Positions 17,153-22,832 of a DNA stretch of 28,949 nucleotides are shown piece after piece. The notes under the pieces are model-generated. The model saw only the letters and a list, made by a program, of their open reading frames with translations, searched no databases and was not told the origin of the DNA. The stretch spans positions 1-28,949 of IMG/VR virus record IMGVR_UViG_3300012964_000047; one strand, 5' to 3'. Source of the stretch: a virus. Positions within the stretch are counted from its first letter, which is position 1, and every line of letters starts with the position of its first letter. The position numbers and the translations under genes are program-made.

Positions 17153-17879
17153 CGGGCGCCTCCCCCACGACAAACTCGACATGGATGTATTGGCCCATGA
17201 GTTGGGCCAGAAGGACCTCAGCCTTGTTTTGGACATTGGCGATCAGCCAGCGCCGGGTGTATTCATTGGCCGTGGCGATCCGCAGCACGCTGTTCTCGAG
17301 GCTGATCGCCGTAGTGGAGGCCAGCCAGGTATCGAAGGCGCTGCGTTTCATATGATCGCGGAGCCCGTCCAGCACCATCGACCAATGCATGATGTGGACA
17401 TTCTCTGGACCATGTGATATGTGATTCTGTGAGGATAATGGAAGGGGTGACGTTAGGACGTCACCCGACACGTCACCTTCGACGGAACCTTTGTCTTCCA
17501 AAGGTGACGTCTGGACGTCACCTTTATCGGCATCCCAGGCATCCCCCACATCTGCCGGTCGCGTCTCGGATCGGCTGGAGACCTCGCCGCTGTACTCCCT
17601 CGGGTTGGTCCAGTTGTGGATCTGAATCTCCAAAGCCTGACCGACCTGTCGACAACTGATGTAACCATAGCGCTCCAGACGCTGCCGCCAGTCGCGCGCC
17701 GTATTCGTTTTGATCCCGAGCTCCTGCGCTGCGCAGCTGTCTGTCCAGCCGGACACGATGCCCGTGCTCCAGTCGGCCTGGTCGATGATCAAGGCGAAAA
17801 TCCACACGGCGGGCCCGATTGCCTTCACGTGTCGGGGATCCAGCAGACCCCGCTTGAGCTTGATCCAGGTCTTCCTCAC
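17136..17879 (-). CDS. Replication initiator: winged-helix plus DnaA N-terminal domain
   Basis: 247 residues from GTG 17877-17879, chosen because it overlaps the HNH stop (GTGA) and has GAAAGGG upstream; an ATG at 17903 is less likely. Residues 1-95 form a winged helix (KRGLLDPRHVKAIGPAVWIFALIIDQADW...GIVSGWTDSCAAQELGIKTNTARDWRQRLERYGYI). Residues 166-238 match DnaA domain I (WSMVLDGLRDHMKRSAFDTWLASTTAISLENSVLRIATANEYTRRWL), used to contact helicase or loader. The two are joined by a 70-residue linker encoded by palindrome-rich DNA, the probable origin. No AAA+ ATPase domain is present. Like lambda O, it may recruit the host replisome at its own gene. Confidence 0.75.
   Translation of the reverse strand: MRKTWIKLKRGLLDPRHVKAIGPAVWIFALIIDQADWSTGIVSGWTDSCAAQELGIKTNTARDWRQRLERYGYISCRQVGQALEIQIHNWTNPREYSGEVSSRSETRPADVGDAWDADKGDVQTSPLEDKGSVEGDVSGDVLTSPLPLSSQNHISHGPENVHIMHWSMVLDGLRDHMKRSAFDTWLASTTAISLENSVLRIATANEYTRRWLIANVQNKAEVLLAQLMGQYIHVEFVVGEAPDGRSG
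17430..17525. other. Putative replication origin inside initiator gene
   Basis: Two perfect palindromes with 4-base spacers share the core GGTGACGT...ACGTCACC: arms of 9 bp at 17445-17466 (spacer TAGG) and of 11 bp at 17500-17525 (spacer CTGG). A single half ACGTCACC lies at 17470-17477. A further 7-bp repeat ACCTTTG...CAAAGGT spans 17487-17505. A DnaA-box-like TTATCCTCA (17430-17438, minus) and an AT-rich stretch (about 17408-17440) flank them. This resembles iteron origins embedded in initiator genes, such as lambda ori in O. Confidence 0.6.
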
Positions 17880-18301
17880 CGTGACCCTTTCTTCGAGTTG
17901 CATCGATTACAAAGCGTTTGGAGATTCTCTGGCACCGTCAATCCGCCCTTTGAACGTGGACGAATGTGGTCGATCACGAGCTGATGCCAGTCCCCACACA
18001 CTTGACAGCGATAGGCGTCTCTCTCAAGAATTTCCCTGCGTAATGCCTGTCCCTTACATTTCGGATCTAGACCCCAGCGCAACGTAGTCGGATCGGGAAA
18101 AGACAGCCCGGCCTTACCGAGTTCCTCAAGAAGCACTTGGATTACCGCACCACCAGAGCCATCACCCTCATGCCAAACGGGCCTTGCCTCTTGGGCAATC
18201 AAAGCCGCCAAATAGCGCAGGAGCAGCCAAGTCCTCTCCTCCTTCTTTTTCATTTCCTCCCACTCATCCTGCGTCACCTCTGCCCATGTATCATGATTCA
18301 T
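17876..18301 (-). CDS. HNH endonuclease
   Basis: 141 residues. The ATG overlaps the upstream stop (ATGA). The C-terminal 50 residues are a complete HNH fold: YRCQVCGDWHQLVIDHIRPRSKGGLTVPENLQTLCNRCNSKKG, with zinc Cys at 99, 102, 131 and 134, catalytic His in the DH pair at 111-112 and Asn at 126. The N-terminal 85 residues are helical and unrelated (EEMKKKEERTWLLLRYLAALIAQEARPVW). It is placed directly before the initiator, not beside the terminase, so a packaging role is less certain; it could also be a homing or replication-linked nuclease. Confidence 0.85.
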   Translation of the reverse strand: MNHDTWAEVTQDEWEEMKKKEERTWLLLRYLAALIAQEARPVWHEGDGSGGAVIQVLLEELGKAGLSFPDPTTLRWGLDPKCKGQALRREILERDAYRCQVCGDWHQLVIDHIRPRSKGGLTVPENLQTLCNRCNSKKGSR

Positions 18302-19704: not shown

Positions 19705-20601
19705 ATGCACGAGCAGATCGAACGGTTCTTGTCGAATCAGGGGAGGCGCTGGTCGCCCTCGACGCTGCGCCAGTATGCTTGGTATCTCGAGGATCTTGGC
19801 CGATGGTTGGAGGCATCAAGCCCCCCCAGGGGCAGCGAGCCTGCCTCGGTTACGGTGGATGCCCTTGACGCCTGGCTGGCGGCTCGCCAGCACTGGGCGC
19901 CATCCACCCAGTACCTGGCGATCGTCGCGTGCCGCATGTTCTTCCGCTGGGCGCTGGGAGTGCGTCGCTCGCCAGCCGACGACGTCGTGATGCCGCGGCG
20001 GCTGACAAAACCTCAGCGCGCCCTGACCGAACTCCGGCTGCAGCAGCTGCTCGCCTCGCTCGATACCTCATCTGCCAAGGGGGTCCGCGATCTGTCCCTT
20101 ATCACGCTGTTGGTTGACACCGGTCTGCGCGCGGCCGAGGTGACCTCACTGCAGGTCGGTCACGTGAACGTGAACGACCGGACCTTCACCGCCAGGATCA
20201 AGGGGGGAACATGGGCGGATGGCGTGTTCGGGAGCTACACCGGCGCCTGCCTCGTCGACTGGCTCGGCACGCGCCGCGACTACGTGCGGCCGACAGTGCA
20301 GGAGGTGTACATCGGGCTGGGAGGCCTGACGCCCGGCTGCCGCATGACCGTCTGCGGCCTGCGCGCCATGTTCCGCGAGCTGGGCTGCAAGGTCGGCTTC
20401 CCCCTCAGCACGCACGATTTCAGGCGTACGTTCGCCACGCTGTCCCTCAAGGCCGGGGCGCCCACACGCCTGGTGCAGGTCGCCGGGCATTGGAAGGATC
20501 TCAGTATGGTCGAGCGCTACTCCCGCAGCCTGACGCCGGCCGACTTCGAGCGCTACAGCCCGGTCAACGCGCTGATGGGCATCCGGCCGCCGCCGGATTA
20601 G
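19705..20601 (+). CDS. int: Tyrosine recombinase / phage integrase
   Basis: 298 residues from the ATG at 19705, preceded by GAAGGGGGAAG. An N-terminal SAM-like core-binding domain covers residues 1-85 (MHEQIERFLSNQGRRWSPSTLRQYAWYLEDLGRWL). The catalytic domain shows all residues expected: Arg142 in TGLRAAEV, Lys166, His237-x-x-Arg240 in STHDFRR, His262 in GHWKD and Tyr272 in VERYSRS. It performs site-specific integration, and excision with a partner. No excisionase is evident nearby. The probable attP lies 32 bases downstream of the stop. Compact, XerD-like size with no arm-binding domain. Confidence 0.95.
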   Translation: MHEQIERFLSNQGRRWSPSTLRQYAWYLEDLGRWLEASSPPRGSEPASVTVDALDAWLAARQHWAPSTQYLAIVACRMFFRWALGVRRSPADDVVMPRRLTKPQRALTELRLQQLLASLDTSSAKGVRDLSLITLLVDTGLRAAEVTSLQVGHVNVNDRTFTARIKGGTWADGVFGSYTGACLVDWLGTRRDYVRPTVQEVYIGLGGLTPGCRMTVCGLRAMFRELGCKVGFPLSTHDFRRTFATLSLKAGAPTRLVQVAGHWKDLSMVERYSRSLTPADFERYSPVNALMGIRPPPD

Positions 20602-20632
20602 GAGTGGCGACCCCGATTACTCGACGCCTCGG

Positions 20633-20668
20633 CAGTTGGTTGGAGGTTCGAGTCCTCCGTGGGTCATG
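20633..20668 (+). other. Probable attP core resembling tRNA 3' end
   Basis: The segment GGAGGTTCGAGTCCTCC (20642-20658) is a perfect T-arm: 5-bp stem with the TTCGAGT loop, followed by GTGGGTCA, which would be the 3' acceptor strand and discriminator of a tRNA. No matching 5' half is present, so this is a fragment. Such tRNA-end identity directly after an integrase is the common form of attP. Confidence 0.7.
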
Positions 20669-20712: not shown

Positions 20713-20838
20713 TCAAGAAGAGAGCAAATTGATCATGACGATTGCCCAGACAGCCCCAACAAGGGTGCCAACACCAATCCCTGCAGCGAAGATGACTACA
20801 GCACAGCTGGCCAAGGTTAAGATGCCCCAGGCGTCCAT
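20713..20838 (-). CDS. Tiny membrane protein, 41 residues
   Basis: Starts at ATG 20836-20838, with GGAGG 8 bases upstream (clear ribosome site). The sequence is MDAWGILTLASCAVVIFAAGIGVGTLVGAVWAIVMINLLSS: residues 5-25 and 24-39 are hydrophobic, so one long or two short membrane helices with Gly-rich packing faces. It lies between attP and the XRE repressor, so it may be expressed from the prophage (moron-like or superinfection exclusion). That role is inferred only from position. Confidence 0.65.
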   Translation of the reverse strand: MDAWGILTLASCAVVIFAAGIGVGTLVGAVWAIVMINLLSS

Positions 20839-20891
20839 CGCAATAACCTCCGAGAAAAGCTTGGCATCCCCCACTCCCCGTGGAGCGGTGC

Positions 20892-21016: not shown

Positions 21017-21247
21017 CTAGCCGCTGCGCTCGTCCACCTCTGTAAACAAAGCGCCGACAGGAACGCCAAGAGCCCTAGAGACTTTCTCCAGGGTCTCCAA
21101 AGTGACGTTCATGTCATGCCCGGCGGCGAGGCCTTGGGCCGTGGGCCAGGAGAGCTTCGCTTCCCTCATCAGCCAAGAGGCTGTGAGCCCACGATCCTTC
21201 AGCAGCTGGGGGACCCGAAGTTGGATCCCAGACGTCATTGTGATCAC
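21017..21247 (-). CDS. XRE-family transcriptional repressor (CI/Cro-like)
   Basis: 76 residues from a GTG (21245-21247) spaced 4 bases after GGGAGG; an ATG at 21238 is an alternative. The single domain is a lambda-type HTH: LRVPQLLKDRGLTASWLMREAKLSWPTAQGLAAGHDMNVTLETLEKVSRALGVPVGALFTEV, with helices 2-3 around LTASWLMREAKLSWPTAQ. There is no cleavable C-terminal domain, so induction would not follow the LexA/RecA route directly. It is transcribed divergently from the rightward early genes and presumably binds the repeats between them. Confidence 0.9.
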   Translation of the reverse strand: MITMTSGIQLRVPQLLKDRGLTASWLMREAKLSWPTAQGLAAGHDMNVTLETLEKVSRALGVPVGALFTEVDERSG

Positions 21248-21267: not shown

Positions 21268-21296
21268 AGCATAGCACAGGTGGAGAGGCCTGTCAA
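21268..21296 (-). promoter_or_regulatory. Repressor promoter
   Basis: On the minus strand TTGACA (21291-21296) is followed after 17 bases by TATGCT (21268-21273). The start would be near 21261, about 14 bases before the repressor GTG. Its -35 is one half of the 9-bp inverted repeat centred between the two promoters. Confidence 0.75.
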
Positions 21297-21335
21297 GTGG
21301 GACATATACATTGGGACTTGACAGACATATACATT
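21290..21335. promoter_or_regulatory. Lysogeny operator region
   Basis: Two exact direct repeats of GACATATACATT (21301-21312 and 21324-21335) are spaced 23 bases apart. They interleave with an inverted repeat CTGTCAAGT (21290-21298) / ACTTGACAG (21316-21324) that contains both -35 hexamers. The second direct repeat fills the spacer of the rightward promoter. This is the expected binding region for the adjacent XRE repressor. Confidence 0.75.
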
Positions 21336-21347
21336 ATGGTTTATACT
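21318..21347 (+). promoter_or_regulatory. Rightward early promoter
   Basis: TTGACA (21318-21323), 18-base spacer, TATACT (21342-21347). Its start near 21354 is about 11 bases before the first ATG, giving a very short leader. The spacer contains a GACATATACATT repeat, so repressor binding there would shut it off. Confidence 0.8.
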
Positions 21348-21364: not shown

Positions 21365-21736
21365 ATGCTCCAAGATGCCGCTCTCCTCTACCGAAAAGCC
21401 CGAGAAATCCTTGTCCAGCTCTATCCCCTCGAACCGGCAGCCTGGGACCAAGCCATTCCCGAAACGCATGTTCTACCCTATGGTTTCACCGGCGAGATCA
21501 ATCTGATCCAGTCCGGCGACTTCCTGGGCTTCGTGGCCAGGTTTTCGCCGGGCGGCCAGCCGTATCTCGAGTTCCGCAGCGTGCCCGTCCGACCGACCCG
21601 GCGTGAGGTCTACGGCAAGACGGCTGAGGGGCAGATCGAGTATGCCGGCTACCTAGTAAGCGACGTGGCCTGGAGGGCAGAGGAGCACCACGAGCGAGAC
21701 GCCACCTATCACCGCAACCACAGAGGCCGACCATGA
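21365..21736 (+). CDS. Hypothetical early protein
   Basis: 123 residues from the ATG at 21365, the first after the rightward promoter; a longer upstream frame would start inside the operator. The sequence is a mixed alpha/beta pattern (LYRKAREILVQLYPLEPAAWDQAIPETHVLPYGFTGEINLIQSGDFLGFVARFSPGGQPYLEFRSVPVRPTRREVYGKTAEGQIEYAGYLVSDVAW). No motif or family is recognised. As first gene of the early rightward operon it may act in lytic development. Confidence 0.7.
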   Translation: MLQDAALLYRKAREILVQLYPLEPAAWDQAIPETHVLPYGFTGEINLIQSGDFLGFVARFSPGGQPYLEFRSVPVRPTRREVYGKTAEGQIEYAGYLVSDVAWRAEEHHERDATYHRNHRGRP

Positions 21737-21998: not shown

Positions 21999-22832
21999 AT
22001 GACGATCGATCTTATCGGCCTTAGCAAGCCGTTTCCACCCGACGTCGTGAACTGGAAGCCGCAGACAATCTCTCAAGACAAGACGCGTGCCCTGGCTGTC
22101 GCCTACATCGATGCGCGGGATGTTGCCGAGCGATTGGATGAGGTGGTCGGTCCTGACAAATGGGCGGTCGACCACAAGCAGGTCAATGACCAGCTGCTCA
22201 CCGGGGTCGGTATTCTGACGGATACCGGCTGGGTCTGGAAGTGGGATTTGGGCATGGTGGAGCGAGAAGGGGATGAGGCGATGTCTGCCAAGGGATCGCT
22301 GTCGGATGGTCTCAAGCGCGCGGCGGTGCTCTGGGGAATTGGCCGCTATCTCTATCGCCTGCCCAAGACCTGGGTCAACTATGACGAACAAAAGCGCCGG
22401 CTGACAGAGACGCCAAGCCTGCCGAAGTGGGCTCTCCCCGAAACCGTGAAACCAGCCAATGGCACCGCATCCGCCAACGGCGCCCGCCCCTACACGCCGA
22501 TGCAGCTCAAAGCCCGCTTCGCCGAGCTCGTGGCCGAGTTCACCGCCAAGGCACCCAAGCCGCTCGAGGGCAAGGCACGTGATCTGGTCGCCGCCCATCT
22601 GGAGCTGTGCTTCGCCGGCGACGAGCAATCCAAGATGAAACGTCATGAATTGCAGCTCTTTCTGACCGGCAAGGCCAGCTTCACCGAGTGGAGCGATGCC
22701 GAGGTACGGGCGGCCAAGGCCTGGTTGAGCGTGAGCCAGGATAGCGGCGGCGCCTATGTCGTCCATCCGCTGGCCTGCGCCGAGGCGCGCAGCGCCGTGG
22801 ACGCGGCGATCACCGCCTCGGCGCCGTTCTAG
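21999..22832 (+). CDS. Rad52/Rad22-like single-strand annealing protein
   Basis: 277 residues from the ATG at 21999, with GAGAGGAG upstream. Residues 20-140 match the Rad52 annealing core: TRALAVAYIDARDVAERLDEVVGPDKWAVDHKQVND, LLTGVGILTDTGWVWKWDLG and MSAKGSLSDGLKRAAVLWGIGRYLYRLPKTWVNYD. The C-terminal half is a helical, less conserved extension. Phage Rad52-type proteins anneal complementary single strands and support recombination-dependent replication. No phage-encoded single-strand binding protein or exonuclease is visible in this operon. Confidence 0.85.
   Translation: MTIDLIGLSKPFPPDVVNWKPQTISQDKTRALAVAYIDARDVAERLDEVVGPDKWAVDHKQVNDQLLTGVGILTDTGWVWKWDLGMVEREGDEAMSAKGSLSDGLKRAAVLWGIGRYLYRLPKTWVNYDEQKRRLTETPSLPKWALPETVKPANGTASANGARPYTPMQLKARFAELVAEFTAKAPKPLEGKARDLVAAHLELCFAGDEQSKMKRHELQLFLTGKASFTEWSDAEVRAAKAWLSVSQDSGGAYVVHPLACAEARSAVDAAITASAPF

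Follow-up and report, generated by a model that had tools for sequence, protein, structure and literature searches.

The window analysed here is a linear IMG/VR virus contig of 28,949 bp that carries terminase and portal genes, and its central feature is a short intergenic region from which a repressor candidate would be transcribed leftward and an early operon (ORF1, ORF2 and an Erf-like recombinase) rightward. The features are as follows.

19705-20601, plus strand: tyrosine integrase of 298 aa (family match)
20632-20667, plus strand: probable attP core, covering the T arm and acceptor strand at the 3' end of a tRNA-like sequence
21017-21247, minus strand: 76-aa XRE-type repressor candidate (Pfam HTH_26), with a GTG start and a GGGAGG Shine-Dalgarno sequence
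21268-21296, minus strand: repressor promoter TTGACA-17-TATGCT (-35 at 21296-21291, -10 at 21273-21268)
21276-21293, either strand: ACAGG-N8-CCTGT inverted repeat, spanning the repressor promoter spacer and -35
21290-21324, either strand: 35-bp element whose 9-bp arms (21290-21298 and 21316-21324) form an inverted repeat around core GGGAnnTATACAnTGGG, the best operator candidate
21301-21312, plus strand: inner direct repeat GACATATACATT, between the promoters
21318-21347, plus strand: rightward early promoter TTGACA-18-TATACT (-35 at 21318-21323, -10 at 21342-21347)
21324-21335, plus strand: outer direct repeat GACATATACATT, in the rightward spacer
21365-21736, plus strand: ORF1, the first rightward ORF, 123 aa, of no known family
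22002-22832, plus strand: Erf/Rad52-like single-strand annealing protein of the early operon (family match)

Alignment of the repressor, the integrase and ORF1 each returned the same contig, IMGVR_UViG_3300031999_000127 (L002/L123/L126), which is the sole relative found, with identities to the window of 84% for the repressor, 81% for the integrase and 61% for ORF1. The order integrase-att-repressor-promoters-ORF1 is common to both contigs, as is the whole half running from ParB to ORF1, while the window's terminase, portal and capsid proteins found no match in the relative; on these alignments the two phages therefore look like mosaic relatives. The tRNA-like stretch beyond the integrase scores 13.2 bits, below the cut-off and weak when taken alone, and no whole tRNA was detected in the window; nevertheless, because about 35 nt are identical in the relative and the flanking sequence diverges to either side, the stretch fits an attP core, which makes it a probable attachment site close to the integrase gene. 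Two different ParB-like proteins adjoin one another in this integrase-bearing phage (13576-14601 and 14754-16541, minus strand), and both are present in the relative. Moreover, the slot between the repressor hairpins and attP is occupied in the window by a 47-aa hydrophobic ORF (20713-20856, minus strand) and in the relative by a zinc-ribbon plus YbjQ-like protein (L002:4444-4914, plus strand), and looks like a cargo slot.

The repressor candidate was assigned to HTH_26 (PF13443) with 34.6 bits in the window and 33.9 bits in the relative, against a gathering threshold of 22. An AlphaFold2 model (mean pLDDT 84) predicts helices at residues 12-18, 23-29, 34-41 and 50-60, with helix 2 at residues 23-29 and the predicted recognition helix (helix 3) at 34-41; across residues 18-50, helices 2 and 3 of the HTH are identical in the repressors of both phages. 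The nearest solved folds in Foldseek are XRE-type HTH domains, namely SaPI2 Stl, DdrO, SinR, CylR2 and C proteins. SaPI2 Stl is the top match through its HTH domain only, and a link to derepression by annealing proteins was not drawn from it. The 76 residues hold an HTH only, with no cleavage or oligomerisation domain, so that direct RecA-type self-cleavage is unlikely. Searches of phage records with the repressor, and of phage and plasmid records with the control region, gave no match. Two hairpins were observed at the repressor gene, the first enclosing its stop codon, with fold z-scores of -4.9 and -4.4 in the window and -6.8 and -3.3 in the relative. At five pairs both partners differ between the phages, and the hairpins are a possible terminator or RNA control element.

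The control region of the window reads CCTGTCAAGTGGGACATATACATTGGGACTTGACAG. Scanning the window for TTGACA-N16-18-TATNNT gave two matches in 28,949 bp, both of them the switch promoters, where 0.03 were expected by chance and two matches arose in 0/100 shuffles; in addition, TGTGC precedes the -10 of the repressor promoter as an extended -10. By this pattern, the two are near-consensus sigma-70 promoters lying back to back. The first-pass annotation had described these promoters as facing apart, with both -35 hexamers inside the arms of an exact 9-bp inverted repeat, and every one of these coordinates was reproduced. Specifically, it should be noted that the hexamers make up 6/9 bp of each arm (12/18 arm bases), and the 9-bp repeat is therefore less striking than it may look: given the hexamers, at least three further paired bp would arise with a chance of about 0.03. 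The arm centres are 26 bp apart, about 2.5 turns, a distance too great for one small dimer to reach across both arms on straight DNA, which suggests either bending or the binding of a pair of dimers. The ACAGG-N8-CCTGT arms are present in both phages around a diverging middle, and this repeat is a possible second candidate site on sequence grounds, partly overlapping the extended -10, with one such match near chance.

An IMG/VR pattern search built on the 35-bp element matched only the relative. A looser inverted-repeat pattern was set aside, there being no homologues among the matches listed; of those listed loci that have two strong -10s, the majority precede a small-terminase-like gene in another phage group. 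In a broader view, back-to-back promoters of the TTGACA/near-consensus -10 kind, in which 14-20 bp separate TGTCAAGT from ACTTGACA, were seen at no fewer than about 30 IMG/VR loci (L006, L008, L013, L026, L028, L058, L104 and others), most of them upstream of a small-terminase-like ORF in the other phage group. Within the window, a third exact ACTTGACAG occurs at 18000-18008 (plus strand), probably by chance, inside an HNH endonuclease gene (17876-18301, minus strand) whose best NCBIfam match is the HNH part of IscB, below the cut-off.

The relative's control region, CCTGTCAAGTGGGATGTATACACTGGGACTTGACAG, permits a position-by-position comparison of the two candidate operators, although one that rests on two genomes only. 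Both divergent promoters keep their consensus matches there, with the -10s (12/12), both -35s and the arms (18/18) identical and the core retained at 14/17 positions (CTGTCAAGTGGGAnnTATACAnTGGGACTTGACAG), against 11/17 and 12/16 in the promoter spacers and 70% in ORF1. The direct repeats, by comparison, are not maintained. Their two exact copies, at 21301 and 21324 and 23 bp apart, are present in the window as first described, with no further copy within two mismatches or fewer elsewhere in the window; the probability of a 12-bp direct repeat in a 116-bp local Markov sequence is about 0.001, an estimate that is conservative because the repeats formed part of the model's training sequence. The relative reads GATGTATACACT at the inner copy (9/12), and the outer copy aligns at 8/12 with a 1-bp deletion, owing to which the rightward promoter spacer is 17 bp there and 18 bp in the window. 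No direct repeat of at least 6 bp was found in the relative's control region, and an IMG/VR DNA pattern search with the outer repeat plus -35 gave no matches.

Consequently, the proposal that the GACATATACATT repeats are conserved operators is not supported by the comparison: in the one relative available they are not conserved with the repressor, despite its 84% identity and identical recognition helix, and no P2 C-type operator of conserved direct repeats was found. Two repressor dimers, bound to the inner and the outer repeat respectively, would have a precedent in small phage repressors such as P2 C, which use direct repeats at about such spacing (PMC4752584), and the exactness of the copies is beyond chance in the window; yet the repeats were not kept while the recognition helix remained unchanged, and we consider this arrangement unlikely. 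The associated claim that the two dimers would share nearly the same helix face holds loosely, in that 23 bp is near two turns but amounts to 2.19 turns at 10.5 bp per turn, about 70 degrees off. A model in which the inverted repeat belongs to the XRE protein and the direct repeats to another, lineage-specific protein (e.g., a host factor or the product of ORF1 or ORF2) would agree with repeats that are real in the window and absent from the relative, where repressor and arms are conserved, but the rightward cluster yielded no further recognisable DNA-binding protein, and this model appears very unlikely. Because the repeats were lost while the recognition helix is identical, the 35-bp inverted repeat is the better operator candidate. 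Arms and direct repeats differ in conservation (18/18 vs 17/24; Fisher p = 0.014), although -35 bases fill most arm positions. Once the hexamers are excluded, the element (20/23) and the spacers (23/33) do not differ significantly (Fisher p = 0.2), and statistics alone are therefore no proof of an operator.

The rightward cluster was examined for the counterpart of the repressor. Neither ORF1 nor the second ORF (ORF2, 83 aa, of no family) carries a Cro-like or HTH family in Pfam, PHROGs or NCBIfam, and the ORF1 fold model (pLDDT 42) is too poor for use; a very divergent Cro-like protein may have escaped recognition. Neither a pattern search nor tblastn found a match to the Erf/Rad52-like protein in the relative. 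The switch had been called complete, a description that goes too far for a locus with no recognised Cro-like gene and a repressor devoid of cleavage and oligomerisation domains. Its temperate setting is supported, with the tyrosine integrase, the probable attP and an XRE repressor facing early genes that include Erf; the divergent promoters between integrase, probable attP and repressor on one side and ORF1 on the other are kept in the relative. No lysogen was found when genome contigs were searched for the repressor patterns and for the tRNA 29-mer. The XRE protein could instead be a local regulator of the early operon, with immunity set elsewhere, in keeping with its small size, the missing regulatory domain, a best NCBIfam match to TrbA that falls far below the cut-off, and the lack of both a Cro and an observed lysogen. 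Its gene, however, lies near the integrase and probable attP and diverges from the early genes in two phages with different structural halves, which makes a purely local role improbable.

Compared with known systems, the locus resembles lambda-type CI/Cro control in that the repressor and early operon diverge from one short intergenic region in which control elements overlap, but here there is no recognised Cro, no cleavable C-terminal domain and no set of three related operators, and both promoters are near consensus. P2 C (99 aa) is likewise a small repressor and recognises a pair of 8-bp direct repeats with a 22-bp spacing (PMC4752584), against 23 bp in the window; the P2 repeats flank the early promoter -10, whereas those of the window lie on either side of the early -35 and have not been retained in the relative, and no Cox was recognised in the window's rightward cluster. 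Mycobacteriophage BPs has a similar layout, with divergent Prep and PR between the repressor and the first early gene and an integrase adjoining the repressor region (PMC4557955), although the BPs attP lies inside the repressor gene and the probable attP here lies beyond its 3' end. Restriction-modification controller (C) proteins, which are among the Foldseek matches, are likewise small XRE dimers and share the length of the candidate operator, C.Esp1396I binding a 35-bp composite operator as two dimers (PMC4041747); they activate their own promoter as well, unlike the autorepression proposed here, and among the proteins scanned, which are part of the window's ORFs, there were no restriction endonuclease or methyltransferase genes.

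Taken together, we regard it as reasonably probable that the locus serves as the immunity and early-promoter control region of a temperate tailed phage, with the XRE repressor acting on the 35-bp inverted repeat. Most likely, the repressor would bind the element so as to cover both -35 hexamers; in doing so it would switch off the early operon and hold back its own promoter, an autorepression rather than a lambda-style activation. A Cro-less symmetric switch, in which a composite 35-bp operator would shut two similarly strong promoters and the covarying hairpin at the stop codon would set repressor output, seems quite improbable. The design itself is familiar, as in the divergent repressor/early switches of many temperate phages. 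For an uncultured phage group, the locus supplies a candidate operator that can be tested, and the comparison shows that an exact repeat may stand out in a single genome without being the functional site, since the relative points instead to the inverted repeat over the -35s.
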